From the NCBI GenBank assembly GCA_022496805.1, contig CM040103.1, forward strand, positions 638,001 through 702,000: DNA of 64,000 nucleotides, read 5' to 3'. This document shows positions 28,798 to 58,720 of this stretch, one piece after another. The notes beneath the pieces were generated by a model, which had not been told where the DNA came from, searched no databases, and saw only the letters and a program-made list of their open reading frames with translations. The translations under genes were made by a program, and so were the position numbers. This DNA is from Pohlia nutans. Taxonomy: Eukaryota; Streptophyta; Bryopsida; Bryales; Mniaceae. The first letter of the stretch is position 1; every line of letters begins with the position of its first letter.

Positions 28798-29729
28798 ATC
28801 CTCGAGTCGAAGATGTCCAGAATTATCCTCGAGTCCAGGATGTCGAGAGTTATCCTCGACTCGAGGATGGTAGTGTACCGGGGAGGTACGCGCGGGGATC
28901 TCTTCATGAGGTTCGTTCAGTTGAGCCCGAGAGGGAGCGTTGCCGACGGAATCCCGAGAAGCAGGAAGCGCTGCAGCAGATGTAACCGCAGTTGGAGCAG
29001 GCAAGGAGCAAGACATATCCTCGGGTCGAGGATCACGAGGAGCATCGTAAGCGGGAAGGTGGAGGCCCAAGTCCTGAGTACCAGGGGTGGTGCTCACCGC
29101 CAAATTTATGGGCCCAGCAGACGGAGTAGAAGAAGCCGCGTTTTGGGAGCTCCTAAGGTCGTTTAAGTACTTGGCCCTCAACTCTGCCATGAATTCCTCT
29201 CTGGCTTTGGCCTCTGCATCCAGTTTGGCTTTGGCGAGCACCTCATCGTACTGTAGTTTACGCTTTGCCTCAGCCGCCTCCAACTCCTGAACCTTTCTCA
29301 TCAAGGCTTCCTCATTCTCCCTCTTCAACTTCTTCCTTGCTAGTTTCTCTTCCGACCAGGAAAGCTCGTAAGCAACGCAGTCGTTCTCTTTGCCATCGAC
29401 AGAGGTCGAGTTGCCTTTCATTACTTTGAGCTTCGCGATTTGCTCTTCGATGCGTTCAATCTCACTGGTGGACGACGGCGCAGGGCGTGCGCTCGGTTCT
29501 GAGACAACTTTTGCAACTGAAGTAGACGGTGCTGGCTGATCGTCGTCGGAGTCACTGAGCTCTATATAAGCAGCGGAAGCAAAGTCGTCAGCAATCGCCT
29601 TTCCCTTGTCCCGACTCCGCTTTGGGGGAGGAGGACCAGAACAGCTCGGTGGCGCTGCTTCTTCGGATTGCTCAGGAGCAGGAGGAGCAGGAGGAGAATC
29701 CATGGCGCGAGTATCCTCGAGTCGAGGAT
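28798..29729. repeat. Five A-type palindromes inside the coding tail of the ParB-methyltransferase gene
   Basis: Seventeen-base sites lie at 28,798-28,814, 28,825-28,841, 28,852-28,868, 29,017-29,033 and 29,713-29,729, the last a perfect ATCCTCGAGTCGAGGAT. Three lie at 27-bp steps and are translated as PRVEDN, PGLEDN and LRLEDT. Element B has three B-type sites in the equivalent tail. Confidence 0.85.
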
Positions 29730-30316
29730 CCGGGGCAGGAGAACTATGGGCCGATCGACCTTCTACGGCTCTAGGTCTTTGGGGAGTCTGTTTCCTTGCC
29801 GCCCGAGGCTTCTCCGTCGTGAAGTCGGGATCGTCATCCTTGTCGGAAGCTCCATCGCTCGACGAGCCGTCCTCATCTTCTCCATCATCTTCCTCCTCGC
29901 TACGCTTGCCAGGAAGATGAGTCCCGTACTCGTCGAACTGCCCATAGACGTCCTCGTCTTCCTCGTTGCGCTCAAGATCCGCTCGGTCACGGTCCTCCTC
30001 GTCAAGGTCCAGCTCCGCATTCATGTCCTCTAACTGTTGGTGTCAAGCATCACTGGACCGTGCAGGAGGGGGTGATGACTCCTCGTTGCTGGAGCGCAAG
30101 ATTGCCGCTGTAACGGGCTTGATGTAATTCCCCATGTACGGGGAATTTCCGAACAGGAAGTCCTTCATGTCCAGGGACTTGGCCTTCAGCGCCAAGGATT
30201 TGAGTTTGTGTAATCCCACGTTGCTGGCGATCCCGTAGTAGTGCAACCCATACATCTGCAGCGTCAGCAAGTGAGTGGTTAGTCATCTATATGAAAAGGG
30301 GGCACGGTATAGGTAT

Positions 30317-30893
30317 TTAACCCCTAACTGCCTAAGCGTCCATTTTTTGGACGATGTACAGATTTCATCCGTATATTCTCATCCGTCATGCACTTTTTGC
30401 AGTGTGGAATTTTTACTGTAGATTCTATGGGAAGTTAGCTTCATGCACGTGTGATCCGATTAGAAAGGGGATGATTTGTGAATTTTTTATGCCTCATTTC
30501 ATGTTGTAGTGATTCACCCAAAATTTTGAAGATTTCAGTGTTAAAATGCTCCAAAAAAAGTCAACTCATAAAATTAAGCAACCAAAAAACCTCCAAAAAT
30601 CACTACACTTAGAGTATTACATTTCAACCAATCACAAAGAATTTTATCCGTAGATTGTCAATATCTTATTCGTAATTGAATTACAAAATAATTTTGAATT
30701 TCACGTTTCAAATTTTATACAAAATTATTGGTAATAGCAATCATAGATCTAACCATATGGATAGAATCTAAAATTCATAATGTACAACTTCTATTAGTAT
30801 ATCAAGTTCAAAATATCCCTCTAGATTGCATTTTATAATGCATCTTTGCAAAACTGCCGAATTTGGAGAGGGCTCTAGGCATTTAGGGGTTAA
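30317..30893 (+). mobile_element. 577-bp TTAA-flanked MITE (family 3), copy 1
   Basis: Begins TTAACCCCTAACTGCCTA and ends TAGGCATTTAGGGGTTAA, with TTAA duplicated at both limits. It lies in the second intron of the element A ParB-methyltransferase gene. Related copies are at 61,302-61,881 and, inverted, at 40,847-41,437. Confidence 0.85.
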
Positions 30894-30905
30894 GCTTGGA
30901 GACTT

Positions 30906-32611
30906 ATCCTCGACCCAAAGATAGAGGAGTGAGAGCAGAAATCTTAAGGAAATGGCACTTCAAATGCACAGACGTGAACCAAACAAACATGCAGTGCACG
31001 CATTAAAACGACTGGAATTATCTTCGAGTCGAAGATAACAGCCCAGAAATGGTGGAAGGCACTACCTTTGCAGCCAGCATGCACTTGGCACCCGTGTAGA
31101 CGCCAAAGAAGTTCTCCCCTGGAGAAGCGAAGTTCTGGATGATGTCCAAGTAGAACTCCATCCGCAGCTCGCTTGAGTTCGATCGAAACTTGGACTCGTG
31201 GTTCTCCCGGGGATCATTGTAATAGGTGATATTGGATGCAACGTACTCTGGCTTGATGAGCCCAGGAATGTACGACGGTACATCTCGCTGATAAAAGAAG
31301 TGGAGATTAACGGAGGGCAGCGCAGCCTGCCGAATCGGAATGTCATATAGCCACTCAGCTTTGCATGCTTTGTAGACGGAGTGCTTGTATTCCCAGTCCT
31401 TGAAATGAACACCGATGAACGCAGTCGCCGCTGCGTCATCCCATGTGTCCGCCGTAATCCAGAGCCATATTTTCGGGTCCTTTATTGACGGGTCATTCAT
31501 CTGGTGGAGCTTCTCGAGGAATGGCATAATCGGAGCCGGAGCGACAGGGTTGTCGGATTTTTTGTGCTTTGGAACGTCCCGGAGATCCGCAATCCCCAAG
31601 CTCAGAGGCCTGGTATTGGGAGCGTAGTCCCACGACGCTGGATTCATGACGAACGCCATGGACGGTCCGTCATGGGCACGAAGTTGAATCTTGCCGGTCT
31701 GCTTTGGTACGTGTTTCTTGAGCGAAACAAAGCGACTAAACATGTCTCTCAACTCTGTGAATTTCTCCCCCATCTCATCTGCCCGCTGGTTGACAGCCTT
31801 GTTTGTCCGGCGCATCGCGAAGTAAGTTTTGCTGGGAGTGGCGAGAAGAAAGTCCCACGTCGCTGAGGAGAAGGAGCACGACTTCTTCCAGTCTCTCCAT
31901 TTCTGCCTGTCGATGTTGCCGTCGTCCTTTACAAATGTGAGGGACTTGTCAGCATTCACCAACTCCTCCAGAATGACCTTCTTGCGCTTCCGGCGCTCAA
32001 CCCACTCACTAGCACAGTAGTTGTCCAGCACCGGCTTTTTCGATTTGAGAACGGAGACTTTAGGGTATGGCAGCGTTCTTTTGGGGGTCCTCCCGCGCAA
32101 ATGTTGCACGTATGTCTTGAGGTCGTCGTCTGTAAAGTGCCCCATGTGCTTGAAGAACTCGCGCTTCAACTCGTACCTTTTCTCTCCGCCCTTGTTCTGT
32201 TTGTAAGGCAGGGACGTATCCGGATTGATGATGTCCCCGTCGGTGTACCTGGTTAGAAAATCTCCCACATGGCGTAGTGGTCATCTTCCAGCGTCATGAT
32301 CGTGACCTCATGTTTGATATCAGCGATCCCCTTCACGTTGTTTCCTTCTTTGTTGGGATTGATACTCTGAAATCGACTGAGGATCATGGTCACGAAGGTC
32401 TGCAAAACAGTCAAGACCATATCTGATGTTAGAGGCAGATATTGATCTGATTATCCTCGAGTCGAGGATAATGTCTCCATTTTTCAAGTGCAAACCGCTA
32501 GTCTCAGGAGCACATCACGAGATTATATACAGTTAGGAAATGATGGGGGTAATGATATGAATGTTTGGAATTTGAACTATTCAACGAAGGCCTTATCCTC
32601 GAGTCGAGGAT
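30906..32611. repeat. Four A-type palindromes in introns of the ParB-methyltransferase gene
   Basis: Sites lie at 30,906-30,922 (degenerate), 31,020-31,036 (ATCTTCGAGTCGAAGAT), 32,453-32,469 and 32,595-32,611 (both perfect ATCCTCGAGTCGAGGAT). The first pair is in intron 2 and the second pair in intron 1 of the coding region. Element B has sites in the same two introns. Confidence 0.85.
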
Positions 32612-34124
32612 AATTTATCATACAATGTGATAGTATATACCTGCCACTTATGTGGTGCTTGGATTGCCTTGTTCCCCCGGACCCGTGCCTCTGCCCCATT
32701 CATGGTTGGCCATTCAAAGTGTATCCAGATTAGACGACCGCTGATGATCTGGTTGCCCCATGTTGGTTGGGCGTGTTCGAGGTGCTTGGTGGTGTTATAG
32801 AATTTTGAGATGTTGTGCAGGTTGAGCGGGTCCAATGTCCAGACGATGTAGGCGTCCCACGTTCTGAGCTCTTCACGCCGCTTCTCGTCACATTGCCCTC
32901 TCTGCAGCTCCTTTGAAGCTGTAATGCTATGCTGGCCGTCAATAATTATGAATTTACCAAGCTGGATGTCCTCCCATTTGGCAGGTGGTTTCTTTAACAA
33001 CTTCATGTCATTGTCGACGGGAGTGAGGCACACGATCTGCCGCTGCTTGATGTCTGCAAATTGAAGGAGCTTATTCTTGCACGTCTCCAGCATATGCTTC
33101 TCCAGCTTTCGGATGATGTACTCCTCATGTGCTGGAAAGCATTGGTTGATGGATACCGGGAATTTTGCTTCCTTGCCAAAGATGTAGCAGTCACCGTACT
33201 GCTCCCAGAACTCTTTGCGCTATTGCGCGAACTTCAGGTACTCTGCTGCTGGCATTGGCTCTTCGGTAGGTCTTCTGTCCAGCTCCGTCAATGCGGAACC
33301 CGAGCTACCAGCAGTTGAGGGTCGTGCGGCATTTGTTGAATTCCTCCTCTTCTTCCTCACTTTAGCTCCCGGAGCATCTTCGGCTGTTGACACTCGGGGA
33401 TTTGAGCGGGCTCTCTTACCCCCACTGGCGCGACTACCTCCACGTGGTGTTCCCAACTGGGATCTGTTTTCGTCGCGAGATTCTGGGTCGCGGGGTCGCC
33501 TTTCTCGGATTGCTGAGGCGGGCGTTCTCGTTGATTGTCTACCCGCGTGTTTGTCCAGCGACATCCAGATCTGGTTAAGCTTTCGCGACAAGATTGTTGC
33601 TTTAGCATTTTTCCATTCGCTGAATTTCTCGAAGGCTTGCTTCAATTCTAGTGTGGATTGGCTCATGGAAGTGCTGAGGTCGTCCATGTCAAACCTCGGC
33701 CCATGCTCGTGTACTTTGATGACCAGGGAGTGGAGGTGAGATTTACTCCTGCCGCTGTCATCCATTTCGTTGAGGGTGATGACAAGGTAATCGCTGTGGT
33801 AGGAGTCGACGATTGTGACCTTCTCATTGTTGTTCCACACTAGGAATCCGGGTCCTCCTTTCTCAAGGTGCTTCAGGTAGACATATTTCTTGAACTGGCT
33901 GACCCCGAATGTCCAAGCTTCCACGCAGTCCTTGAATTTCCACAGAGTTCCGTGGGTGGACTCCATCTCTGGTGGGATGAATGGCTCCGACTCAAATGGA
34001 TTCTCAAATGGCTCCATGTATGGAAGAGTTGAGGAATAGTCATAAGTGTCCACTTGAGCCATTCGAATAGATCTGCACATAACATTGGGAATACGGTTTG
34101 TTAGCGATCGCGCAGTCCTATAGT

Positions 34125-34830
34125 ATCTTCGACCCGAGGATTGGTTTTGTGTTTGGGATGCGTTGGGTGTTGTAAGTTATGCGGACCTCATCTTCGACTC
34201 GAAGATAATCTTCTCTGGGTTCGCTATGGTTCAGCTGAAATCATTGTTAGCATTGCGGACTCAGTTATGAGTATCGTCGGGTCTAAGATAAAGCGAAAGC
34301 GTTGTCTAGAATTGCTGGAGGCCACCTGGTTTTCCGATTTATCTCCCGGATATGTTCTGTTTAGTTGATGGTTGATATCTTCGAGTCGAGGGTATGACGT
34401 TGTTATCCTCGATGCGAGGATAATGTTTTACGACTCCTGTGACTAGGTATTGGGATTGCAGCAGCCGGCGCATTGTACGGGTTTGGAGAATTATCTCCGA
34501 ATCGAGGATATTTGTGCGGATTATTTTGCGTGGAGTTACTTTTGTATTGTGTTTTTGTCTCCGCCGTGTGCTTGTGATTGAGATTTATCTTCGGGTCGAG
34601 GATATTGGTACTGGCAGGGATGATAGTTTCTTGTTTTATGTGTCATTCATTTCAAATTTTCATTCCCTGATTGGGTTGGTTGACTGTTATCTTCGAGTCG
34701 AGGATAATTTTTTGTCTGTTATTGGTATTTTATGGTTTAGGGTATCGATTTCTCTTGTGTTTGTAAGATATATCTTCGAGTCGAAGATAATAATGCTCGA
34801 GTGCAATAGTATTATCCTCGTGTCGAAGAT
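34125..34830. repeat. Nine dispersed A-type palindromes upstream of the ParB-methyltransferase start
   Basis: Sites start at 34,125, 34,190, 34,377, 34,405, 34,493, 34,587, 34,689, 34,772 and 34,814. They fit ATC(C/T)TCGANTCGA(A/G)GAT with one or two changes. The sequence between them is unrelated from site to site, so they are not simple tandem expansion. They lie in the probable first intron. Confidence 0.85.
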
Positions 34831-34855
34831 ATGTTTCTTAAAATCCATGAGAACT

Positions 34856-35229
34856 ATCCTGGATTTGAAGAGAATTATCCTCGAGTCGAAGATAATTATT
34901 CTCTAGTCGAAGATAATTATCCTCGAGTCGAAGATAATCATGCTGGAGTTGTTGTTAATCATTTTGGATTTGAAGATAATTATCCTTGTTTCGAAGATAA
35001 TTATCTTCAATTCGAAGATAATTATCCTCGAGTCGAAGATAATTATCCTCGAGTCGAAGATAATCATCCTCGAGTCGAAGATAATTATCCTCGAGTCGAA
35101 GATAATCATCCTCGATTCGAAGATAATTATCCTCGAGTCGAAGATAATCATCCTCGATTCGAAAATAATTATCTTCGACTTCAAGGCACTTTCGCTAATT
35201 TCGAAGATAATTATCTTCCGAGAGTTCAT
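34856..35229. repeat. Array of 18 palindromes in strict 21-bp register
   Basis: Unit starts follow 34,856 + 21n through 35,213. The best units (34,877, 34,919, 35,024, 35,045, 35,066, 35,087, 35,129) read ATCCTCGAGTCGAAGAT plus a 4-bp AATT or AATC joint; the edge units are degenerate. Twenty-one bases is two helical turns, so sites would face the same side of the DNA. Because the unit is a multiple of three, several frames are open here by arithmetic alone. Confidence 0.95.
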
Positions 35230-36300
35230 GATATATTCAGTGTATTGATATAGAAATCTGTAGCTTTTACAAGAAGTCTAACATTCTAAAGTGTGAGGAG
35301 TACCTCTGAAAACCTGGGTGCTTGTCCTTGAAATTCTAGCTCCCTCCTGTGCAATACTTCGAACCCCACCTCCACTTCGAGAAACCCTCGTGCTATGCTA
35401 AATCTGCGAACCTTATTTTATCTCAAATTAGGAACAATACGCTTGCCTTCTGGCCAGAATTTCAAAGCTAACATTACTACGAGATCTCTTTAACCCTAAT
35501 CAACCAAGCAGAACAACATACAAGAAAACTAGCAATTCTGTAGCAATTATGTAGCAATTCTGTAACAATACAAACAATCAAGCTAGAGCAAATGTGTAAC
35601 AATTGTATCATTTTTGAATATAAGCACCCTTAACCCTAAGCTCTTCTTAAAGAATTCCAACAATTCTAATAGTTTTTACAGTATCTGTATCCATTTGAAC
35701 GCCTCTGATACTTAGCACCCTAAACTCTACGGAAACAGAGAAACATGCAAGGAAACAAGCAAAAACAAACAATGGGAAGCAAAAACAAGCAAACAAGCAA
35801 ACAAACAAAAACAAATATTCATGCAAGCAAACAAACAAATAAACTATAAGCTGGACGGTCGAAGTACCTCACGGAAGCTGGACTTGCTCCACCTTCAAGC
35901 ACACACCTCCACAACAGCAAAAACACCAGAAAGAGAGCTTCCACTGCATTCGCAAGTCACTATACCACCAATTGCCCAATCGCCCACTCGCCGAATCAAA
36001 ATGTACAGAGAGGATGAAGGTAGCGTGGAGTCACGCGAGCGTGAGGAGGAGCGGACACGGCGGGGCAGCGTGAAGATGCGACGGAGGAAGGAGGAAAGCA
36101 GCGTGAAGATGCGACGAGCGACAGCAAAAACTCTAAACCCTAAGCGCGCGGGTGCCTGGGAGAGAGATGACCTCCCAACCTGCAGGCTCGGCTTGGGCAG
36201 TTGGCTCGGCTCCGAAGCTTGGTCCTGGCTCGGTACCGAAGCTGAGGTGTTAGGCTTGGCACCGAAGCTTGGCTCCCCAGCATGAGTTGACCAAGCCTGT
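35230..36300 (-). promoter_or_regulatory. Probable 5' non-coding exon and promoter of the ParB-methyltransferase gene (A)
   Basis: A minus-strand donor-like GAG|GTAC at about 35,869 follows a GC-rich segment with repeated GGCTCGG and CCGAAGC words (36,180-36,280). Element B has the same arrangement at 59,530-60,080. This places the palindrome array in the first intron. A 154-codon plus-strand open frame over this segment is probably not a gene. Confidence 0.45.
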
Positions 36301-36849
36301 AAAGGCTAAATGGCAATTCTATTATTTTGAACTCCTAAATGTCCCAGCATCTAGAAACTGGATGACGAACTGATTCAAAGCCTTGCAACTTTCTCAATGA
36401 CGAACTGATTCAAAGCCTTGGAACTGATTCAAAGCCTTGCAACTTTCTCAATGACGAACTGATTCAAAGCCTCGCAACTTTCTCAATGACGAACTGATTC
36501 AAAGTCTTGCAACTTTCTCAAACAACCTCACATGTCTTTCATCACAGTCATATTTCTAAGCCTATTAAATTTTGTACCAATTGCAATAAATCTCTAACGA
36601 TGGAGAATTGTTGATAATATTCGAGAGGCCTCTAAAGGCAATAATGTCAAACTTGTTGCCTGGGTATAATTCCATAGAATTGGTATACAAAGAAAACTTA
36701 CAGATTATGCATCGTGGATTCAACCCGTACGATTTGATTCAAAAATACTATGAACAATACTTTATTATATAAGTTGAAAGGTTAAATAAGATATGTACTC
36801 TGAATTTGAATTTTTTTATGTTTATTTTGTTTCCTTCTCTGTTTTATCC
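36301..36849. repeat. Spacer with 35-bp tandem repeats at 36,364-36,520
   Basis: About four copies of GACGAACTGATTCAAAGCCT plus TGCAACTTTCTCAAT, one partly collapsed, lie at 36,364-36,520. The rest is AT-rich with no gene. Confidence 0.7.
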
Positions 36850-37402
36850 TTTAGCGTATTGATTGAACACTATTATTAAAGATTTGTTTTAAAATGTTTG
36901 ATGAAAAACAAAAATGGAGTTTATGTACAAAGCAAAGTTGTAATTGTCAACATATTAAAGAAAAATGTCTGTATAGTTGGATTCATCAAAATTATTCTCA
37001 ATATTTTTCAATTAATTTTGCACGGTTTTTGCTTGAAACTTAATTAAAAATCCCAAAAAGTAAACAAAAATTGAAAAACATTATAATGAACTTGGAATAA
37101 CACTCAGTACAAGATGGTAAGGTCTCCAATTTTTGACTATAATTATAATTGAAAATCATGTGTAAAGTTTCATTTCCTGAACTAAAACTGAAATATCACA
37201 GAAACTACTCGAGGAACTTTGTTTGTAATTTTTAGAAAATTCACATCATCTTATTTTGAAGATCCATACAGTACAAATGGTACTTAACTAGCACAAGAAT
37301 CAAGAGACTTTTGGATGGATGAAAAATATCACCGTATATAGTGAAGGGACGCGTCAGAATTCATACAACGTCTAGAAAATGAAGGTTGGCGCGTCAAAGG
37401 GT
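36850..37402 (+). mobile_element. TTAA-type MITE (family 2), copy 3, degraded ends
   Basis: The interior matches the copies at 1,469 and 60,095 (ATGAAAAACAAAAATGGAGT, TAGCACAAGAATCAAGAGA, GGCGCGTCAAAGGGT), but the terminal TTAA is lost on both sides. It is an older copy inside element A. Confidence 0.65.
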
Positions 37403-37835
37403 GCACCAATACTAATAAAGGTAATTCTATCAAAACCAATGTAAAAAACAAAATCTTAAATTCTATTTGGAATTCTTAGACACGTCCAACCATTTTTCAC
37501 GAAGAATTATAGATTCTAAGCCTTTGAACTTTTTCATACAACCTCGCGTCACTAATTATCATGAAAGTCCCTTTTTTAGCGTATTTCTTGCGACGTGGAG
37601 CTGTTGATAATTTTGGAGGGGTCTCCAAATGCAATTACGTCAAACTTCTAATAAAATACAAAGAAATGCGTGCCACGATCTCTCAACATTATCCTGTTGA
37701 TATGATCAAAGTATTTTGTAGTACTGTTTGTCGGGTGGACACTAGTAGATTGACATTTCAAATAGACAATTTATTCACGTTGCCACAAACCACGAATATA
37801 ACATAATTATAGTGCATTGACTAAAACACAATAGA

Positions 37836-38805
37836 TTAACTCCTAAACGTCAACACTTGAACCCCTAAATTTCCTTGTGTTTTCAGGAGCTTGAAACCTC
37901 AAAACTGCGATTTTGTACCTCTATGTACTCCCGGGGATGTGAACCAAGTTTTTTTTACTTCTTTTAGAATTCCAACCGTAAGATCTTGTACCTAAGCCTA
38001 TTCATAGCTATTGTTTCAAAAATTGACCGTTGGATGTTTATCATTTGCAAGATCATAACATCCAAAGTTTGTGCAAAAGTTTTTCGGGGCATTGCTTGGG
38101 AGGCATTGTCTCCATAGTGCAAAGGGGGACTTGAAGATTGTTACTCCAAACATTTTGCTCATATTTTTTTCCATGTAGATAACTAAGTTGGGTACGCTCA
38201 TGCAAAATTTTAGAGACTCATTACGCGTTTCAAACCTTCATCCAAATTAATTTCCGGAAGTAGGTATAAAAATGGCAATTTGGTGAAACATGCATCACAT
38301 TAATTGTATTTGATTTTTGGAAAAAATGAACGGTGATTAGGTACCTCTATGATTTTATAAATTTTAGGCGAAATTATTTTTAAAAAATTTCAAAATCTCA
38401 AATTTTGACAAATTTCGAAAGAAATGGATGTGAAATTACAAAAAACCTTGGAGGTTGCTGTTCTTTATTTTGGAGGCTGCCCTTGTCAAGCCAAGAATAT
38501 AATCAACATGGGTCACTTCAAATTTTGAGCCTAAATGTGGTGAAGAGCATGTCTCCAAAAAAGAAATTTGAAAAAATGATTATAATAAAAAGTTTTTTTC
38601 TGCCCCAGTTGGGCTTGAAACCAAAAATTTCAATAAAAAAATTATAAAATCCGAATTTGACTTTGTAATTTTTACCACACACACCTTGTATGTATGACCA
38701 CACCCACGCCAAATTATAGTCTAAAATTCTTAATTTAGACCTTCCATCTAAGCTGCCCGAAACAGCAAAAAGCCATTTTGGCTTTTAAGGGCCTTTAGGG
38801 GTTAA
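37836..38805. mobile_element. 970-bp TTAA-flanked element, CTCCTAAA/CCCCTAAA ends
   Basis: TTAA lies at 37,836-37,839 and 38,802-38,805, with tips TTAACTCCTAAACG and, inward from the right, TTAACCCCTAAAGGCC. No coding capacity. A block near its right end (GCTGCCCGAAACAGC) resembles the end of the 923-1,472 element. Confidence 0.55.
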
Positions 38806-39150
38806 TCAATTAACAGATTCAAATCGTTATCACGTTCGCTAAACAAATTTTAACTTATAGATTTTAGTATTAAATATTGATGGTAATATTAGTGAATCAA
38901 ACCGTATGGATGGATTCATTTGGAATTTAAGATTCAAAATCTAGATGTTTCATTTGGTATATCAATTCCAAAATAATCTTCTAAATAGTCATTTAGGATC
39001 ATTTTTCTAGCACCGTCAATTCCATGGTCATACCTTCATAATGTTGATGATTATCTATGAAAAATTATAAATCATTCAATGTGATATTTAAAGTATGCAA
39101 ATTACAGTGCTTTGACTTTTACAAAAGAGGTGAGGACCTTTAGGGGTTAA
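38806..39150. mobile_element. Truncated TTAA-type element
   Basis: The right end reads GGACCTTTAGGGGTTAA like the neighbouring elements, but no matching left tip is visible. The interior is AT-rich. Confidence 0.4.
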
Positions 39151-40846
39151 TACATATAAGCCTTGTTTAGAAGGGTTTACTATAGGCATTTATATGGGTT
39201 AAAAAAATGACTTTTCGTCTTATTGACCCTAAACTATAAAAGTGTTGAATTACAAAATAAGTTGAAAATTTATTAGGTGAAGAACAACTTCCCATTTACA
39301 GCTTCAATATTACTCTAAAATCAATTCAGCTGAAATATAACTCTTAGAAAAATCAATACTCTTAATTTTTTGAGTAAGACAATAAATTCTATATCTTTTT
39401 GACCGTAACCAAAAAATTTCATTAAAAAGAATTCATTTGAGTATTATAGAATAAGTACAAAATCTCAAATGGTATTTCATTCAAGTACACAAGGTTCTTC
39501 CTGGTTATTCTAGAAATGTGATATACATATGCAAGCAATGAAATTATTCCTTTATTTTGTTCTTCTCCCTTAACTTGATCAGCCAAGCACTTTGAGACTA
39601 CCCTAGACGCTGGACATCTTGTTCAGTCCTGATTTGTGACTGCACGCGGTGTGCCTTTCGTTCTTCGATCGCATACTTCTACACAATTTTTTTTTGCAAA
39701 ACACATAATGAAGTATAGTTAAATAGGATCATTATTTAGAGAGGACAACAACGTACTGACAAACCGCCAAAAAATTAGATACTTCTCACCGAAACATTCA
39801 TTTGATGATTTTCATCGAAGCATTAATGATTTTCATCCAAGGATTAATGATTTGCATTCATGATGCATCCCCCTCCTACAAGTACATCGAGCTCAATCAT
39901 AGCATATGCATGAAGTATATCTTATGTACGTCATGAGTGTACTCTTATCATGTGAATAATGAATTATCATATGAAAGATTGAAGTAAGGACATGATTTAG
40001 GGTAATTAAGTACCTAGGATAGTGCTTATGAATTTCACCATCATGTAGTGCTATTTAAAAATTAACACCAATTATGAGAAGTTTCTTACAATATAAACAT
40101 TTAGGTGTCTTACTTATTTTTACAAATTAAATTGAAGACAACGATGACAAATTATTGAATCCTAAGTAAATTAAGTAACAAACCCCGGGATATGCAATTG
40201 CACATTCTGCTAAAGGGGCAATTAACATATATGTTGTTCAAATTTACAAATTTATTTTAAAGAAATTTAAATTTTGATTTATTTTAGGAAAATAATTATC
40301 AACATAATAGATCACCACGTTCACCCAAAAAATGTGGGGTGTCTTTTATACAAAGTAATTTTAATTTGATATGAGTAATGTCTGGTTTTTTTAAACCAAT
40401 TTTCTGGAATTCTAGATATATTCATAGGATATAGGTGTAATACACCTTAATGAACCTAAAAATATTAAATTATTTCACTATATATAATTATATACATAAT
40501 CTAGAAATTATATATAGATGAAATGTATAGATTCCGAACACGAGACCCTATCAGCAAAGGTTCCAACAATTAACCGTATGATAATTATGAAATTATTACG
40601 TTTTTGGTCATATTCATTGAATAAGTAGCATTTTATTTGTACTTTATAAAATTTGGGTTATGAGTTATTATATTATATTTTATTTGTAGCAGCTCAGAAC
40701 ACATTGCAACCGACATCACCATTCTATCACATGTCACATGCAACTCTAAGTATGTTGGACTTGAATAATAGTATGTCGAATTAAATTTTTATCCCTTCAA
40801 ACCAAATATGTTCATCGCGATTAGTATAGTCTGAAATAATTATAGT
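39151..40846. other. AT-rich spacer inside element A
   Basis: No gene, RNA or clear repeat recognised. Confidence 0.5.
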
Positions 40847-41437
40847 TTAACCCCTTCATGTTCTCACTCTTTTTAAACTTGGCAGATTTAAAAAGATACA
40901 TAAAAAAAATCAAGTAAGACTGAGGGATATTTTGTCTTTCATGAATGAATAAAAGTTTTACATAATTAATTATGGATTCTATCCATACAATTAATTTGGC
41001 AATGGCTATCACCGATATTTGTGTATTATATTACGAACTGAAAATGTAACGATCGTTTGTAACAATTACGATTAGTACAAATAAAATATTGACAATCTAG
41101 TAATGAATTCTCGGGGTTCGGATGGGTTCAAATGTAATAGTCTAAGTGTAGTAATGTTTGGCGTTTTTTACGTAGCATATATTAGGTAGTTCACTTTTTC
41201 AAGAGCACTTTTGGAATAAAATCTTTGAAATGAGTAGTGGAGCACTACAACGTGAAATGAGGCATTGAACTTGCACAAGTCATCCCGTTTCTAATGGGAC
41301 CACACATGCATAATCCAACTTCCCAGATAAGTTTGAAATAAAAATTTCACACTGCAAGAAGTGCATGATAGATGAGAAATCGGAGTTCAAATTCGTTCAT
41401 CATGAAAAAAATGCATGGTTGGGCGGTTAGGGGTTAA
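40847..41437 (-). mobile_element. 591-bp TTAA-flanked MITE (family 3), copy 2, inverted
   Basis: TTAA lies at 40,847-40,850 and 41,434-41,437. The right end reads GCATGGTTGGGCGGTTAGGG, matching the start of the family 3 copies at 30,317 and 61,302 in reverse orientation, with shared interior blocks (AAGTGCATGATAGATGAGAA). Confidence 0.75.
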
Positions 41438-41614
41438 ATGCAACCCATTGAACTAGGTAATTTAGCATTTTTTTAACCATGTGCTTATGACCAAATTTAC
41501 GAAAATCAACGTAAATAAATAAGTTTCAATTTTTATACAAATTATAAATGAGTATTAGTGACGCACTATATATTTTTTCGTATATGATGAATGTTATGAA
41601 TTTAGTAGTATAGA

Positions 41615-47602: not shown

Positions 47603-48259
47603 AATCCCTGAGACACAAATCAACATCATCAAAGCATCTATTGACTCGTATGTCTCAGATTCCGTCAGCGAGGCATCCCCGCCTCGAGGATGATTTGTAT
47701 GTAGGCATATGTGTAGGAGAGATTTGTAGTGATTCGTATTGTGTGGATCTAAATGTAGACTGGTGTGCAATACTACAATGGCGATGTCCTTATTGTAGAA
47801 CATTGTATTACATTCATTGAAATTTATCGAGGTGCCTATGCACTATGAATGTTGAATTTTGTATTTTGGTACTGCTTTCACATTACATGTATGGATGGTA
47901 GGACCATATTTGTCATTGATATCTCACTTAGAATAGATCCTCAATTATAAGTGTGATTCTATTTGATTACATCATTGTTGGCTGAGACAAGAATATTATA
48001 ATTGCCTTAGTTATGCCTCGTACCAGTTTGAGAATGGTTGTGTAAACATTCCATTATTGTTGCGTCAACATTCCTAATATTGCTCAAAGAAATGCAACAC
48101 AGGTTTCAGGACTTCAACAATTAAATATGACTACTCTTAATTTAATAGATGACTATGACTGATCCAACGTAGTTAAGTCTCAATTTAATGAGTTGTCTCA
48201 CTATAATGACCGATTATTATCTTCGAGATTTGGGGTCATAATTAAAATGAGACTGCACA
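47603..48259. other. 3' flank and right subterminal region of element A
   Basis: No gene recognised. A degenerate palindrome (CATCCCCGCCTCGAGGATGA) lies near 47,675 and a lone half-site (ATCTTCGAGAT) near 48,219. Subterminal GTCTCAATTTAATGAG near 48,177 is inverted relative to 27,335. Confidence 0.5.
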
Positions 48260-48286
48260 TTGTGTCATTTTAATGAATATTGCCTT
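48260..48286 (-). repeat. Right terminal inverted repeat of element A
   Basis: Twenty-seven bases exactly complementary to the left terminus, followed by the CTAT duplication. Confidence 0.9.
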
Positions 48287-50052: not shown

Positions 50053-50504
50053 AAGGCCTTATTCGTTAAAATGAGACAAAATGCTCATTTTGAGACCTTC
50101 AAAAACCGAAACAAAATTCTAGTGATGAAATAGTTGTTGAACCCCACGATATGTTGAGCTTGTACATTGAACACCCATCAAAAATTGTGTAGAATTTGAT
50201 ACAATGGACGTCAAGCAAGGCACTCCAGTACCATCCATACATAACATGAAGTGAAAAAGTGATTCGTAAACAGGACTAGAAGTATAAGAATACTTGGTCA
50301 AAAGAGAGAAAGCCTTTTATTTAAAAGTGTGTCTGAATACTATATATTGTGGTAGAATCCTCCGGAGTGAATTTAATATGGAAGTAAAACAAATAGTGGA
50401 ATTTAGGCTGCATTCTCTTCCACAAGAGGCAGTGAGATCCAAAGGAATATATGTACGGCTATTTACGATATCTATTTATAGTATACTCATCTTTATGCTA
50501 AAGT

Positions 50505-50628
50505 CATCACGAATATGATTTGGATTAATATGCTAGCGTAGACACTACTTGACTGATTTTGCGGGACATCACGAATATGATTTGGATTAATAGGCTAGCG
50601 TAGACACTACTTGACTGATTTCGCGGAA
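50505..50628. repeat. 62-bp tandem duplication at the 3' end of a coding region
   Basis: CATCACGAATATGATTTGGA through GACTGATTT(T/C)GCGG occurs twice, at 50,505 and 50,567. The second copy overlaps the stop-codon end of the minus-strand gene at 50,607. Confidence 0.85.
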
Positions 50629-51572
50629 ACGACTTTCGCCGCCTCTTCCGCTTTGAGCTTGGCCAGTCCTCTCAACATAACCTTTTGTCGTTCACTGTAG
50701 TTGGGATTAGGGTTAGCCGCCCAGGCATCGAATACGCTTAGGCTCTGAGCTTCGGTGGCTTTTCGTTTTGACCTTCGAGTGGTTTCCCGGGCCTGAGACG
50801 CGGAATGCGATCTAGACCCTCGAAGGGGCGGCTTTGTCATCGTCGGAGCGAGGGTCTTTGTGTGCGGATGTGGGGTCGCAGTGGATTTGGGCACTAGAAA
50901 ATAGGAGGGCTCGATGAGGATACATTTCTTTACGAGACCTTCTGCAGAAGGGGCTCGCCTGGCTCGCGCATATTCTGCGGGACGAGGATGCCCATCCCTC
51001 AGCAGAAGCACCGTATCGCTAGAAGTGGCCTTCGACCTCAGCGTCCTCGTTCGAGTGCCCGAGGCCACTGTAGCCTTCAATCCACCGGTGACAACAATAG
51101 GAACAGCAGACGGAGTCGGAATCGCATCATCGAGGCGAGAGTGCGCCGGCGCGCCGTCGAATGGGAGGATTAATTTGCGATTCGTTGGGGAGTCCGTCCG
51201 CCGCTCAGGAGAGAAGCAATCCCCTTGACTCGGCGTTGCCCGCTTCAACGGAGACGGGGATTTGGCCGGAGTCTTGACGGGTCCGTGGTCCGGGGGGCTG
51301 TTCACAACGCCCGCCTCAACGTCACCCTTCGAGTAGTCTATCGCCGCAGACGTAGCGGTTTGGGTAGACCGCAACAGGTAAGGTCTTGAATACGGAGCCG
51401 TGTCGCAACTCCCCCCGTCGGACTCGGATCCGGAGAGGAAACTCCGGGTAAGCCGATTCCGCGGTCCAACAACGCGATTGCATCCTTTCTGCAGTACAGA
51501 GATATACCACAATCCCACGTTACCGGACGAAGAACAAGAGCAAAATAGCCTGGAATGGAGAAGGGGGAACAC
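50607..51572 (-). CDS. Unrecognised basic, disordered protein of element B
   Basis: The open frame is 321 codons, but an acceptor-like CTGTACTGCAG at about 51,494 suggests the main coding exon begins there. The protein is Ser/Pro/Arg-rich, with RRSKRKATEAQSLSVFDAWA and a helical C-terminus (RQKVMLRGLAKLKAEEAAK). It could be a nuclear DNA-binding or structural protein. Element A has no counterpart, apparently because its left arm was deleted. Confidence 0.5.
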   Translation of the reverse strand: MFPLLHSRLFCSCSSSGNVGLWYISVLQKGCNRVVGPRNRLTRSFLSGSESDGGSCDTAPYSRPYLLRSTQTATSAAIDYSKGDVEAGVVNSPPDHGPVKTPAKSPSPLKRATPSQGDCFSPERRTDSPTNRKLILPFDGAPAHSRLDDAIPTPSAVPIVVTGGLKATVASGTRTRTLRSKATSSDTVLLLRDGHPRPAEYARARRAPSAEGLVKKCILIEPSYFLVPKSTATPHPHTKTLAPTMTKPPLRGSRSHSASQARETTRRSKRKATEAQSLSVFDAWAANPNPNYSERQKVMLRGLAKLKAEEAAKVVSAKSVK

Positions 51573-51772
51573 GCATGGACCATCGACGGCATAACAAATA
51601 GTAACGCAGAATGGAGTGAAAACGCGGCGACATATGTAAAATATTATTTACAAATGAACATAGGAGACGCAATCAATAGGAATTAGTATAGTCAATGGAA
51701 CGTTATTATCGTCAGAAAAACCCAACGTCCGGAGGGTCTACTCTATAACGCGTCCTTTTTCTATGACTACGC

Positions 51773-52674
51773 CTATCCCATGTTCTTGGACGACTCTCTC
51801 ATGCCATTAATGATGTCCTTCACGTGGTAGTCACCGGGTCGCAAAGGGTTCAGGCCGATTCTATTCTCTTCCACGTATCTGCGCATCTGACCCGGCTGGC
51901 AGTTTGAGTCAAGACGGCATAGCCACGACAGCAGCTCCCCCATGAGGACGTCGTCCTGCCGTTCGTGTTGGTTCCAAGAGCGGAGGAATATAGTGTTCCC
52001 ATTCTCATTGCAAATGCTCTTGGCTGGAGAGTCGTCAATAAGAAGAGTATTGTCCGGGGAAAAGGACGTGTCGCCGCTAACATTGGTGAACAGGTGCTCG
52101 GAGAGGACTTTCATACACAGCACCGCAATGCCGACTTGAAAGAACCTCCCCGGCAAGACCTCTATCTTCGAGATCTGATCCTGGCTCAAGATATCGTACG
52201 GCCCCTTGCAACCCCTAAAGAGGTGCCCCGCGATGGGTTCAGCGTTACGCTTGAACATGGAGGTCCAAACTAACACCCTGTCCGCGAGGGACGATACCTC
52301 GCGGAGGAATTCAGCTATGTTCTGCCTAGCATAGACCGCCTTGGGACCGATGATGGTGGGATTTCTGTGGCTGAGAACATTGTCTTGCAGTTGATACGGG
52401 CTAAATTTTTCTCTGGACGACTTCTGCGCCGTATGACAGAGAATGCCATTCAAGTCGAAGACAATGTTCAGCCACTTCCTACGCGGCGGGGGTAGTACGA
52501 GAGGCACGGTCCTCTGCACGATCTCTCTGCCACCCTCGCATTCTACCTGATCAAAACATCACAACAAAGAGATGGAGTTACCTGTTTAAGCGCAGAAATG
52601 GGAGAGCCAGAGACTGGGTAGGAGCAATCTGATGTCCTAAGCGACTGCGGTCTCTCATTGGAGAGTGCTTCCAT
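51773..52674 (-). CDS. NIF/FCP1-like HAD protein of element B
   Basis: Exon 1 is 52,674-52,582 (start MEALSNERPQS) and exon 2 is 52,546-51,773, joined at CAG|GTAACT, giving 288 residues. Motifs: KWLNIVFDLNGILC, RVLVWTSMFKRNAEPIAG, NTLLIDDSPAKSICNENG, and a C-terminal ELLSWLCRL..QMRRYVEEN typical of NIF/FCP1 phosphatases. As in element A, the second catalytic Asp is absent (DLNG), so a binding or scaffolding role is as likely as catalysis. No internal stops: the frame looks maintained. Confidence 0.8.
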
Positions 52675-53294
52675 TGGTAGCGGACAGTGCACGCAAATAT
52701 TGTTTGGGAGCTGAGCAACAGGCACATTGAGAGGCAAAGACAATTAGGCAGGTGCTCAAATATGTATAACTTCCGCACACTTTATTTACAAAGTCAAAAT
52801 ATTACATCCGTATAATTAACATAAGTCTGTAATGGACTCAAAACTACTCCGAACACTTTGATACACTAGAGTACAACGATGGCAACCACAGATGGGATGG
52901 CCGTCAGCGCTAGGTATTCAAGGACCAGTGATGACATCCTGTCAAGAACGATGAATACAGATGAGAAACGATTACTACAGGATTTATTCTAGCCGTTCGC
53001 ACCCCGACACAAAAATAAAAGACTCCAAGCAACTTGGACTCAATCAAAATCATAAGGGTCGGAGGGCTGTACCTGATCCGGCTCGGCTGGATCCTGCGAT
53101 GGCACGTCTGACGCGGTTGGAAGTTCGGTGTCGTGGTCGTCCGCGCGGTATTCTTCCCCCACCTCATAGTCCACCAAATCCAACTCCATGCGGGAGGGCG
53201 ACTGCAACTCCGACGGGTCCTCGCGAGAGGTTGAGCACACCAAAGCCTCAGGAGCCTCGACCTCAGTCGCCAGTTGTTCGACCACCATGACAGC

Positions 53295-53591
53295 ATTGTC
53301 GACTCGACGATCTTGCGCTGGGGGTAATTCCTCCTCTGTCAATTGGGGAACCCGGACTTCGAAGGCAGACCTCTCGGGAGAAGGAATCCTGAGACGGAGA
53401 CGGAGGAGTGGATGGAACTCGATCCAGAGGGGCCAAGAAGCTGGAATCGTCCGAATCGTCGGGTCGACGATCAAGAGTCTCCACCTGCTCTTGCTCGACA
53501 GCCGGAGCAACGGGAGCGTAAGTGGACGGTAGAGGAGGCGAAGGGTCGGCGGCAATGGGCATTGCATGAACCGTATCGTCGGGTCGACGAT
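53295..53591. repeat. Three B-type palindromes in the coding tail of the ParB-methyltransferase gene
   Basis: Sites at 53,295-53,311 (ATTGTCGACTCGACGAT), 53,455-53,471 and 53,575-53,591 (both ATCGTCGGGTCGACGAT). They are translated as DRRVDN and DRRPDD, in the same part of the protein where element A encodes RVEDN-type peptides from A-type sites. Confidence 0.9.
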
Positions 53592-54995
53592 CGGGGGTCT
53601 CCTCCGAATGATGATCCCTGACCTCAGGAACGGGAGCGCTAGTGGAGGGCAAAAGAGGTTGGGGTGTGTCACTTGGGGGCGACTCAGGAGCAAGCGGAAT
53701 CAATTCCAGCAGGACATTCAAATGTTTGACTATGAATTGCAGCTCCCTCTCCAGCTTGCTCATCTGCTGGGTAGACTTGGCTGCTCGCTGATCAGCAGCA
53801 GCCGCGGCGACAGTAGCAGCTGCAGTGGCCTTCTTTGACTCCTCTAGTTCCCTCTGGATCTCTCCCTTCTGCTTTTGCCTTGCCTCCCTTATTGCCACCA
53901 TTTCCATGTGTTGGGTGAACCAGTCTTTGTCCACCTTGACCCTCCCCCCAGTTTTTTTGTCTATGATCTCTTTCTTGTCATGACCAGGCTCTTTGTCGTC
54001 GTCATCACTATCGCGGTGATGATCGTTTTTGTCATCACTGTCCAAGAGAACGACATCCTTCGGATTGGGAGGACGGTTCGTATCCACCGGGGTAATGGTC
54101 ATATCGTCGTCGTCGTCTCCCGGTGGTTTGTCTTGCACTGCCGCCTGTTCTTCTCCAGGCTCCGGCACAGCCGTCTCCACAGCCTGCTCCATGCCCTCGT
54201 CCCTGGTCTGCAGGTCGCCTGCAGCTAGATTCTTCGTCTCCTCCGCCTGCTGATCTACAGTTTGGAGCAGGGCCTCCTCGATAGCCTGCACCACGACGGT
54301 TTCCACGAACTGCTGGATGTCCTGGTTGAGCTCGGGATCCTCCGGAGAATCACGGAACGACTCCAGCTGCGGATTCCCCGTGTCATGATTGTCAGAAGGT
54401 TGTGATTGCTGGACAACTTGATTACCATACTCTGAGTCCGTCTCATAGTTGTCCTCAGGCTGCTGAGAGGGCTGATCCCGTCGAGCCTCGGCAGGATTCT
54501 CCTCATTCAGCTCATCTTCGCGACCCTCTAACCCGGTATCGTCGCCCTCCTCCTCCATCGCCTGCTCAGGGTTGCCGTCGACACGATCTCGGTTGAGCCA
54601 CAGACGGATCTGGAGTGTGTTCGTGCCGAATTGGTCGATCCCCTCAACGCTCGGATCAGTTGACACATGCGCACCCACGGATTCTGTCTGTCGGACAACA
54701 GATGGAGCAGGGTCTGCTGGAGACACTAATGTCATCGGTGGGGACGGAGGAGAGTCGGAGTGAACGATCATGGGGCTGCGAGAGGCGGGAATCTCGTACC
54801 CGAGGGCGTACAGAGAATTCGAGAACATGAAATCGTTTCAATCCAACTTGCTTGCAAGTCTGGCAATTTTCGTGTCTGCCTTCACGTGTGCCCGATCAAC
54901 AAAGCCTTAGTAATATGCTCCGAACATCTGCACAGAGAACATTACAGGTTAGTCTTCATCGAAATCAATCTTTCTATAACAACCGATTGACTGGT

Positions 54996-56505
54996 ATCGT
55001 CGACCCGAGGATAAGGGTGAGCATTGACGTCGTAAATTATGACAGTTAAACCATAATCATCGACCCGACGATAAGAAATGGGGTATACCTTCGATGCCAA
55101 CATGAACTTCGCCCCCGCATAAATCCCCAGAACGTTCTGCTTTGGAACTGCGCAGGCGTGCAAGAGCTGGAAGTAGAACTCCATGTGGAGTTCAGTAGTG
55201 TCAACTCTCCATTTGGCCTCCGTGTTCTTCGAGGCATCCTTGTAATATTCACAGAGTAGCGGAGTAGTGTATTTCTTCGTCACTAATTTCCGCGCAGCCC
55301 TGGCGAATTTATTGTCTTTTTTGAAAAGAAAGAGAAGTATGACGTCTGGGGCAATATTTCTGCTGGTCACGTTGTTGAACATCTCCCCTCTCCTCGGAAC
55401 GTACGTGGATACCTGTGCCTCATATTCATTGAGCTCGTCTTCTGCAAAGGTCGATGCAGCTTTGAAGTCCTCTTTCCAGGACAGAATAATCAGCCAAATG
55501 TTCAGCTCAGTTACGTCGGGTCAAGGGTATCGGCGAGGAATTCCAGGAAGGGATTGATTGCGCCTGCATTCTCGGTCGGCTTAGTCCTGGGAATTGCGCG
55601 AGCGTCGAGCACCGCCAGATTCACTGGACGAGAAGTGTAGGAGTAAATGGAGCTGGTCACCAGAGCTTTGACACTCATGTCAACTCCTCTGATTTGGACT
55701 CCTCCTGCTGGATCCGGAAGACGGTACTTCAGCGTCATGAACCTCGTGTACATGTGAAGCACCTCCGGGAACGCCGCCGTGTAGTCCTTCGAACGCCTAT
55801 GCCAGCCCTCGAGGCGGAGCCGCTTCACGAAATAATCCTTATTCGGATGCGAGAGCAGGAAATCCCACGTTGCAGACGTCAAGAGGTGCCTCTTCTTCCA
55901 AGGCCTCTACTTCTCAGGATTGACGTCGCCGCTATTATCGAGGAATTTCAGGGTTGGCTTTATGGACATTATATCCTGCAGCACAATTTTCTTGTGCTTT
56001 CGACGCTCGGCCCAATCCGCGGCTGACATGTTGCTGGCCACGAGAATCTTTTTCTTCGGGACTGAGACTTTTGGATATAGCGCACGCCGCCCTGGAGTAT
56101 CTCCTAGGAGATGCTGGGCCACCACTCCGAAATCCTTATCAGAGAACCACGCGAAGGATTTGAAGAACTGCTTCTTCAGAGAAGATGACTTTGGCTTCCA
56201 TTTCTTTCCATCCTTCCCATCCCTGTAAGGCGCTAAGGTTACCGGATCTATCAAGTCCCCGTTGGCGTGCATGATAAGGAATTTATGCTAATGCGCCCAT
56301 AGATGGTCCGGAAGGGTGATTATTTGGATTTCATTTTTTAGGTCCGACACGCCCTTCACCGTTGCCCCGTCCTTATCCGGATTTATACTCTGAAATCTCT
56401 GCACAACAGCATCTGTAAAGGCCTGCACAACAGAGAAATGAAACGTTAGAATTCAAGTGAACGGCTGTATCAGGAGCTGTCGCGATGTATCGTCGACCCG
56501 ACGAT
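54996..56505. repeat. Three B-type palindromes in introns of the ParB-methyltransferase gene
   Basis: Sites at 54,996-55,012 (ATCGTCGACCCGAGGAT, right half A-like), 55,056-55,072 (ATCATCGACCCGACGAT) and 56,489-56,505 (ATCGTCGACCCGACGAT). Two lie in intron 2 and one in intron 1 of the coding region, the same introns that carry A-type sites in element A. Confidence 0.9.
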
Positions 56506-58034
56506 AATGAAAGGGAACAAGAGGAGACCTTCTAGCGGATGAAGCTGTAGGTGGCGTTATTCTTTCTCGTCCTCGCTTCCTCCTTATCGCTTGTTAGACG
56601 TCTGTATGTGGTCCAGATGTTTCTACAGCTTATCATCTGGTTACCCCATGTGGGCTGGGCGTGGTCCTGATGGTTCGTGCAGTTGTAGTACTTCGAGATA
56701 TTCCTTAGTTGATTTGCGTCTCGGGAGTACACAATGTACGCGCTCCACGTGCGGAGTTCATCCCGATGTTTCTCACCGCATCCTCCATTTTGTAACTCTC
56801 TCGATGCGTAAATGCTATGCTGCCCGTTGATGATCATGAACTTTCCCTTCATGAGCTCTTCCCAGGTCCCAGGCCGCTTTTTGAGCAGTTTATGATTGTC
56901 GTCAACCAGCGTTAAACAGACGATTTGCCTCTGCTTTACGTCGATCATCAGAACGAGCTCCTTCTTCACGTCATCGAGAATGTCCCTCTGCAGAGTGCGA
57001 ATGACGTACTCGTCGTTCGCCAGAATGCACTGATCGATGTGGACCGTCTTTACTGCCATTTCATCTAGAAATAGCGCTTCATGCTCTACCCAGAACGCCT
57101 TCAGTATCTGTGCAATCTTTTCCCAATCTGGAATCTTCTCTAGTGTGTCTGAATCGGTTGAGACTGTAGTCAGTGCCGAACCAGAACTTCCACCAGCCGC
57201 TGCAGCTCCAGACGCACTTGTCAGGCTTCGCTTTCGCTTTCGGGTGGACCCTTCAGCCTCTGTATCGGGGGCGTCTCTTTTCTTGCTGGACGTTCTGGCC
57301 TGGCTTGGCTTGGCCTTTCTGCCTCCTGGTCCTCCTACGGCATTCTTTCTCTCAGCTCGCGGAGTTGAGGTATTTCTCTGGGATCGATTTGCGCCTCTCC
57401 CGACAGTGGGTCTCCGCTCTACGTGCTCCATTGCGTAGTGATCGAGTGTCTAATAGATTCGCATGAGTCGATCGGCGTTAGACTTTGCTGTTCCATCCGC
57501 CCATGGAACGTAGCTAAGTTTAGCGAAGTCTTCGTTGAGACTGGCCATGTCCGATCCCCCAAGGAAAGCGATGAGGTTGTCCAAATCGAATTTGCCATGG
57601 CTCTTGTTGACATCGATCACGATTGAGTGACAGTGGTCCAGGACCGTTTCGTCGTCATCGACAGCACACAGCACAATGACGACGTAGTCATCCCGCTGAC
57701 TCTCAATGATGGAGACTTTCTCCTGCACATTCCAATTCAGGTAGAACGTCTTTCCTTCAACTTTGTAGCAGAGGAACACGTAGTTCTTGAATCGGTTGAC
57801 ACCGAAACTCGAGCTGTGGATGTGTTCTTTAAACTCCCAGAGCTTCCCGTAGTTTTCCTGCATTTCGGGGATGAATAGCTCATCCGTCACGGGATACACG
57901 AACGGTTGGAGGTGAGGTGCGGTGGCGGAGTAGTCGTAAGTGTCTTTGTCTGCCATTCTATACAATCTGTGGCATGGTTTAGGAGCAATTGTTAGAGGTC
58001 AATTGTTAGAGATCAATATTGAATTGTCTTAGTA

Positions 58035-58720
58035 ATCGTCGACTCGACGATAGCACTACCATTTGCGTAAAGCATTGGCTTTACAAATCCAATCTCGTAT
58101 TTCTTGTCTGGAGTTATATAGGTTGAGTTGAGCGTATGTTGGGAATGACCCTACACCGGATTCGTGCACATGAAGTCGTGGTCCTGTCAAATCACGGGGA
58201 GTTTTCGATCAGGGATTTCTGAATCGTTGACCCGACGATTCAGTGATCTATCTACCGTTCTTTTTTTAGTGTGTACGTTTGAGGTCACCTTTGCTTTTAA
58301 TAAGCTTTATAATTTCTTTTTGTATATGTTTGTCTTGACATTAGTGTTATAGTATTCGGAATTCTATGTGTTGTTATGACGTTGATAATGCAGATTACTT
58401 GGTGAATCGTCGACCCGAGGATTCGGTCATATTTACAAGTTCAGAGCCTATTTGTTAAGTTCATATTGCCTGCATGTTGCTAATTTGGTGTTAATAATCT
58501 CGTAATTGAAATTCCGGAAGCTATATGTATTGTTTTCGTTCTCCATCTTGTATTTGTGTGTATCGTCGGGTCGACGATATGGCAGAGTGCACCACATTTA
58601 TCATCGACCCGAAGATATGAGTTACTTTATATCAGTGCTAGGTGATTTTTTTAGTATTGTATTGGTTTTGAATGGACTTCAATCTGCAGGTTCTACTACA
58701 TGTATCGTCGAGTTGACGAT
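58035..58720. repeat. Six B-type palindromes upstream of the ParB-methyltransferase start
   Basis: Sites at 58,035 (perfect ATCGTCGACTCGACGAT), 58,223, 58,406, 58,562, 58,600 and 58,704, irregularly spaced in otherwise unrelated DNA. They occupy the probable first intron, the equivalent of element A's array, but with no 21-bp tandem expansion. Confidence 0.9.

Follow-up and report, generated by a model that had tools for sequence, protein, structure and literature searches.

Why do two giant transposons in one moss genome carry the same 17-bp palindrome many times over, each in a version of its own? The question is posed by a 64,000-nucleotide stretch of Pohlia nutans DNA (assembly GCA_022496805.1, contig CM040103.1; C19:638001-702000 in the 697,796,988 bases searched), referred to here as the window, which contains element A and the left part of element B. 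A preliminary description of this stretch had proposed that an element-encoded protein reads the palindromes and that its specificity changed together with all of its sites, as in a self-recognition, partition-like or methylation system. We found that the version of the site follows the lineage of the element, and that the sites are conserved above background. The reading that we favor, with a probability of roughly 0.5, is that the palindromes are self-recognition tags of two giant terminal inverted repeat (TIR) transposon families, bound by a dimer of each family's own protein, which has a methyltransferase (MTase) fold and is predicted to be catalytically dead.

Two versions of one palindrome in the window

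Element A (27151..48286, plus strand) is a giant TIR transposon of 21.1 kb, delimited by its flanks and by perfect 27-bp TIRs (27151..27177, plus strand; 48260..48286, minus strand). CTAT flanks it on both sides as a 4-bp target duplication. A second copy at C19:1126198-1156197 is 93–99% identical in pieces, the match ending at 48290, and CTAT also stands directly after the right end of that copy. The perfect TIRs of A and the fixed length of the target duplication are features of class II elements. The ends read AAGGC and the duplication is of 4 bp, in place of CACTA ends and a 3-bp duplication, and no CACTA transposase domain was present in the open reading frames (ORFs) scanned. Element B (50053..64000, plus strand) opens with a B-type version of the TIR (50053-50079) and runs beyond the window; it is known here from this left part and from one 2-kb stretch downstream.

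At two or fewer mismatches, the pattern ATCNTCGASTCGANGAT has 56 matches in the window, 44 in A and 12 in B, while 100 dinucleotide shuffles gave a mean of 0.04 and a largest count of 2 at the same threshold. The exact frame ATC-N-TCGA-S-TCGA-N-GAT is kept by 22 of the 44 sites in A and by one of the 12 in B, where the centre of many sites reads CGG/CCG. When the centre base was left free, the N base in A was C in 51, T in 36, G in 2 and A in 1 of 90 half-sites; in B it was G in 19, C in 2, A in 2 and T in 1 of 24. The N base is a strong preference in both elements, not an absolute one. Position 8 differs as well, being G in 9 of the 24 half-sites of B versus 5 of the 90 of A. Thus, the earlier counts of more than 40 sites in A and 12 in B are reproduced when two mismatches are allowed, and not for the exact frame, and the claim that the N pair alone separates the two sets is too strict, the pair differing strongly between elements that are leaky in it and that differ at position 8 too. 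The claim that no site lies outside the elements was borne out for the window, with zero sites at three or fewer mismatches outside 27151-48286 and 50053-59000.

The sites of A fall into two groupings, one upstream of the gene for the MTase-like protein (34125..35166, by pattern search) and one upstream of the gene for a DUF7869 protein (43669..44701; 13 sites at two or fewer mismatches). The former includes a tandem array of 21-bp period at 34771-35178, and the spacing of the latter is mostly preserved among genome copies. The 12 window sites of B, mostly G-type, were found by pattern search at 53295..58720. The 2-kb stretch downstream (C19:705600-707599) adds six sites, all G-type, and G-type sites continue from C19:707304. 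An ORF is overlapped by 12 of 57 sites. Eight of these 12 lie inside the two acidic exons described below; the other four, near exon ends, are probably intronic.

Site version follows element lineage

Genome-wide, the exact frame has 2184 matches and its reversed control has none. The first 50 places listed, all on C1, comprise 19 in giant elements, 31 in miniature inverted-repeat transposable elements (MITEs) and none elsewhere. Fourteen of the 19 lie inside three stretches of giant elements (L001, L038 and L039), and the other five were placed by their position, next to L038 in one case and upstream of a DUF7869 copy in four; 29 of the 31 were assigned by reading the sequence and two by the list of MITEs. 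Isolated exact sites had been considered as counter-examples to confinement within elements, and those examined proved to lie in the two MITE families. Beyond the window, the palindromes are found in MITEs as well as in giant elements.

The TIR pattern, with at most one mismatch, matches 665 places in the genome and its control none. The 100 places listed are 43 A-type and 57 B-type, and among them 15 A pairs and 5 B pairs of same-type neighbors stand 15-45 kb apart, at 21.6-40.3 kb. Pairs of sites, by patterns that leave out hybrid pairs by design, form 15 G-type and 18 C/T-type clusters among the matches listed, which reach to C4:30,315,970 (G) and C11:159,420 (C/T). Within 30 kb of a listed A-type TIR are 16 of the 18 C/T-type clusters, with none near a B-type TIR and two without a TIR; 9 of the 15 G-type clusters are that close to a listed B-type TIR, none to an A-type, and six are without one (Fisher 4.9e-7 for the 25 assigned of 33 clusters). 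The protein copies gave the same picture. Where both lists are complete, 5 of 5 A-lineage MTase copies have C/T pairs and 11 of 13 B-lineage copies have G pairs within 25 kb, the other two being near none; along a longer stretch, for which the C/T list alone is complete, a C/T pair lies near 13 of 15 A-lineage copies. No crossover occurred in the assignable 25 of 33 clusters and 16 of 18 protein copies. The site version, with the N pair being either C/T or G, thus follows the lineage marked by TIR and MTase-like protein, as the preliminary description had anticipated.

Relatives of B extend this pattern. L038 is 71-80% identical to B in the MTase-fold and N-terminal/GQHS exons, 53-80% in the acidic exon and 85% in a NIF-type phosphatase, and has G on both sides in 15 of 17 sites. 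L039, at 50-67% identity to B, has G on both sides in 17 of 19 sites, and a series of sites spaced by 58 bp upstream of DUF7869. Site clusters precede both main genes in L039 as they do in A, and the region upstream of DUF7869 in L039 is 77-79% identical, in longer pieces, to the 2-kb stretch from C19:705600.

The sites are under constraint

Constraint was tested on 30 DUF7869 loci picked by their protein and not by their sites, over fourteen consensus sites. Across all 30, whose copies share ancestry and whose sites were defined on the consensus, identity was 90.4% in sites versus 82.0% elsewhere, and one of 1551 circular shifts was as high. CpG was kept at 669 of 804 places inside sites versus 637 of 1017 outside. 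A version with 26 loci leaves out L015, L019, L020 and L034, which have a truncated or out-of-register upstream region and carry 6, 2, 2 and 7 sites. It gave 94.7% in sites versus 84.4%, with 2 of 1546 shifts as high, and CpG retention of 634 of 710 inside versus 576 of 930 outside; within the site, identity was lowest at position 4 (80%), followed by the centre (83%) and position 14 (92%). Conservation above background and retention of CpGs indicate that the sites are under constraint. Together with segregation by lineage, this is the pattern expected of the self-recognition by an element protein that had been proposed.

These results bear on the possibility that the sites have no function, as tandem-duplicated repeats that were copied with the elements and whose versions differ by descent only. 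Tandem arrays are indeed present and many copies are young, but excess conservation and CpG retention appeared in copies picked without regard to site, and similar G-type clusters recur in the diverged relatives L038 and L039. We consider the absence of function very improbable.

MITEs that carry the sites

Both MITE families were found through exact sites. MITE-1 (about 260 bp) has one T-type site, and MITE-2 (255 bp) has one G-type and one C/G hybrid site. The ends of MITE-2 match those of the giant elements and the ends of MITE-1 are about 82% identical to those of MITE-2. In DNA searches with each, 40 candidates were scored, all full-length or nearly so. Among 20 MITE-2 copies collected by sequence, 19 have a 4-bp duplication, and at each of the two places an exact consensus site is present in 17 of the 20. 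These copies are 99.1% identical to their consensus, equally inside and outside the sites, and were dropped as a test of constraint for being too young. The distance from the end of the right-hand site to the element end is 44 bp in 18 of 20 MITE-2 copies; 14 of 15 MITE-1 loci, which had been selected by their exact site, show the same spacing. The two remaining MITE-2 copies are without an exact frame match there and the last MITE-1 locus was not matched by the script. In A, a degenerate site with an intact left half, seen by eye on the inner side of the right TIR (48219..48235), ends 51 bp from the element end, as against 44 bp for the MITE sites.

The MTase-like protein as candidate reader

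In A, an N-terminal domain with a GQHS motif (the "ParB-like" exon; 32593..34080), an MTase-fold exon (31018..32280) and an acidic exon (28510..30042) lie on the minus strand. The corresponding exons of B, on the same strand, are at 56532..57998 (interrupted by a stop; 53% and 38% identical to A in two pieces), 54942..56287 (split over frames; 33-38% identical to A in pieces) and 53263..54837. The acidic exons were defined as ORFs and carry sites in their reading frames, five in A (28798, 28825, 28852, 29017 and 29713) and three in B; the similarity between the two was not significant. The N-terminal, GQHS and MTase-fold parts look like one gene, because a single chain, the Physcomitrium patens database protein P0149, runs from the N-terminal part through GQHS into the beginning of the MTase-fold exon. 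The acidic exon is the probable C-terminal exon of this gene. The first of these exons is broken in A by an in-frame stop, and the same region in a relative (P0151) is a single unbroken frame of 501 aa. Searches of the genome with the MTase-like protein gave at least 103 and at least 93 matches among those listed (two overlapping searches), many of them open-framed. C22 and C23 hold many matches with stops among those listed.

The fold corresponds to a permuted Rossmann MTase, with bacterial beta-class N6/N4 DNA MTases as closest folds. The catalytic motif IV, [DNS]PP[YFW], is found in none of the 41 aligned sequences. D-x-R at residues 232-234 and G-x-K at 397-399 are each present in 38 of the 41, and the latter, to judge from strand order, appears to sit where motif I would lie. 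The protein is thus predicted to be catalytically dead. An active modification system in which the element methylates its own sites would agree with the MTase fold and with a palindrome that has two TCGA boxes, but we regard it as highly unlikely because motif IV is gone from all 41 sequences; the methylation system of the preliminary description was set aside on this ground. Its ParB assignment is not supported by sequence profiles: GQHS resembles a ParB box by eye only, and no ParB domain was matched in searches of Pfam, PHROGs or PDB profiles. A chromosomal transposon would have no need of partition. The MTase-fold and N-terminal exons had no credible family in Pfam, NCBIfam or PHROGs, the strongest PHROGs row (0.0007) coming from one member of the 41.

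A site is frequently seen directly beyond the splice donor in introns of the MTase-like gene (on the minus strand, for example, past 32593 and past 31018). Relatives from other sources likewise have a site adjacent to the donor after the GQHS and MTase-fold exons, where translation into the intron yields peptides such as YPRLEDN or YRRVDD.

A tree of 31 MTase-fold sequences was labelled mostly by such translated intron readouts, with 16 of the 31 rows unlabelled and three mixed. G-type readouts occur in two places, the clade of L038 (five rows) and P0084 within the clade of A; the branches starred on the tree require at least two changes. The G-type label needs two changes, and 2 of 500 label shuffles were as low. 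The three labels together require five changes (17 of 200 shuffles as low). As a relative of A's protein, P0084, carries a G-type site, more than one switch is suggested, and the change at the N base pair may have happened two or more times.

The DUF7869 protein and other features

The DUF7869 protein of A (44852..47602, plus strand; Pfam) is a predicted DDE-type transposase. D419 and D422 are invariant in 33 DUF7869 sequences, with D544, D584 and D586 at 90% or above, and these acidic positions fit the expected strands and helix by secondary structure. A catalytic role for them is predicted. C23 (16.7 Mb) holds 16 of 52 DUF7869 matches among those listed; C22 and C23 may be chromosomes that are rich in elements or that recombine poorly.

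A NIF/CTD-type phosphatase gene is present on the minus strand of both giant elements, incomplete in A (27395..28021; Pfam NIF, E 3.4e-7) and at 51773..52558 in B (8.1e-12), with 42% identity between them. It is cargo that might act on RNA polymerase II. A further ORF of B (50607..51647, minus strand) matches in part the second copy of A, with 59% identity over 86 residues. By piece, the NIF, MTase-fold and N-terminal/GQHS parts of B are 33-53% identical to those of A, and each element has its own version of the TIR; the two are related families. Viral contigs gave zero matches both with the protein alignments and with the paired-site pattern, and one 6.7-kb stretch of A had no counterpart among phage records in a close-similarity search. 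Elsewhere in the window, a Tc5/pogo-like transposon gene lies on the minus strand at 9151-11682 (DDE_1 4e-26; HTH_Tnp_Tc5 5.5e-11). A dispersed repeat of about 550 bp, with copies about 73-79% alike, is found at 1469-2013, 18418-18965 and 60107-60644, and also beside the right end of the second copy of A (24994-25533 of that copy).

Explanation and alternatives

In the favored explanation, the reader would be the N-terminal/GQHS/MTase-fold protein of each family, which would bind the tags that precede the two main genes, those in introns and those close to the right end. Bound tags might protect the element from being closed by silencing and switch its genes on, and might license the ends, including those of the MITEs, for the predicted DUF7869 transposase. 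Divergence at the N pair would ensure that co-resident families do not serve each other. A dimer is suggested because the 17-bp site is palindromic, and element-encoded readers, rather than one host factor, because two families in one nucleus keep distinct versions. The MTase-fold protein is the first candidate because it is element-specific, its fold is that of a DNA enzyme lacking the catalytic motif, and the densest site array precedes its own gene.

Several observations weigh against this explanation. Because TIR, DUF7869, MTase-like protein and sites are co-inherited, the association cannot single out the reader. The code is leaky, as seen in the hybrid site of MITE-2 and in some C-type half-sites of B. 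Reading frames are broken in both window copies (the first-exon stop of A, the split frames of B); elsewhere in the genome, the MTase-fold exon is open in other copies. C/T-type labels are unclustered on the tree (five changes; 374 of 500 shuffles as low). P0084, from another source and close to the protein of A, has a G-type readout, in one translated site. The statement that specificity changed together with all sites has the standing of a correlation only, and P0084 suggests more than one switch. MITE-2 is a young burst that provides no test of constraint, and the right ends of the two MITE families are alike (about 82%), so their shared 44-bp spacing is not independent.

That spacing also favors an account in which the sites are transposition signals resembling subterminal repeats, with a TNPA-like accessory protein that pairs the ends and regulates through promoter and intron sites. 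In each MITE family a site stands 44 bp short of the right end, A has its degenerate site near the same end, and there is a precedent in TNPA and in two soybean CACTA subfamilies with diverged motifs (excerpts of PMC2613891). Most sites of the giant elements, on the other hand, lie kilobases from the ends, in upstream regions, introns and coding exons, and the right-end site of A is degenerate; we hold this account to be rather unlikely. Less plausible still is that DUF7869 reads the palindromes itself. It is linked to the sites, diverges with the lineage (A and L039 are 52% identical across the 136 residues that the L039 stretch covers) and may bind DNA, judging from its fold. A transposase, however, would be expected to read the TIRs, which hold no palindrome, and the densest array is upstream of the MTase-like gene.

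If the self-recognition reading is taken to its full extent, one moss genome would house two orthogonal self-recognition codes, in which a DNA methyltransferase turned non-catalytic palindrome reader protects, activates and mobilizes its own kin only, one base pair of the code has switched two or more times on the protein tree, and MITEs use the tag to spread. We offer this wider picture tentatively. Co-change of protein and site is directly testable by binding assays, because many open-framed MTase-like matches and 2184 exact sites are at hand. The picture would, if true, also give DUF7869 a setting.

Comparison with known systems

Sequence-specific self-recognition by plant transposons is already known from VANC and TNPA. 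We know of no case that combines a palindromic code, a dead DNA methyltransferase as the likely reader and two versions differing mainly by one base pair in one genome. A literature search over titles and abstract openings, with most subscription journals outside it, returned no description of these elements, and DUF7869 was named in no paper that it found.

The VANDALs of Arabidopsis are Mutator-like elements. According to the excerpts of PMC5735166, their VANC is an element-encoded protein with a short motif that is dense within its own family (in introns, in intergenic regions and upstream), that forms tandem repeats and that has C-type and T-type versions between close subfamilies; a further VANC study (PMC10398659, in excerpt) is among the closest cases. 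The moss elements share with VANC, as so described, a protein encoded by the element, the density of the motif in its own family, the tandem repeats and the subfamily versions, and among the matches listed the motif is confined to its own lineage. They differ from it in their 17-bp palindrome (the VANC motif, YAGTATTAY, has nine bases and is non-palindromic), in an MTase-fold protein (VANC bears DUF1985/DUF287, neither of which was found in Pfam scans of the given ORFs and exons), in a DUF7869 element of more than 20 kb, and in sites within coding exons and MITEs. Anti-silencing was shown for VANC (PMC5735166) and is a proposal only for the moss elements.

From the excerpts of PMC2613891, TNPA recognizes subterminal repeats on which Spm/En transposition depends in cis, and Tgmt, in the soybean CACTA system, measures 20.5 kb. 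The likeness to the moss elements lies in a second protein as reader, putative in the moss, of a repeated motif which nonautonomous copies must keep, in the two diverged subfamilies and in comparable size; the TIR, the 4-bp target duplication and the distribution of sites set the moss elements apart from CACTA as described there.

Two more distant parallels concern the protein. Bacterial ParB reads parS, a palindromic site of about 16 bp that occurs in clusters; clustered palindromes and GQHS are alike in the moss elements, whose protein has no ParB profile match. METTL14 is a catalytically dead MTase-fold subunit and, like it, the moss protein combines an MTase fold with loss of the catalytic motif; the fold may have been retained for binding nucleic acid. 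In contrast to METTL14, the closest folds of the moss protein are those of bacterial beta-class DNA MTases.

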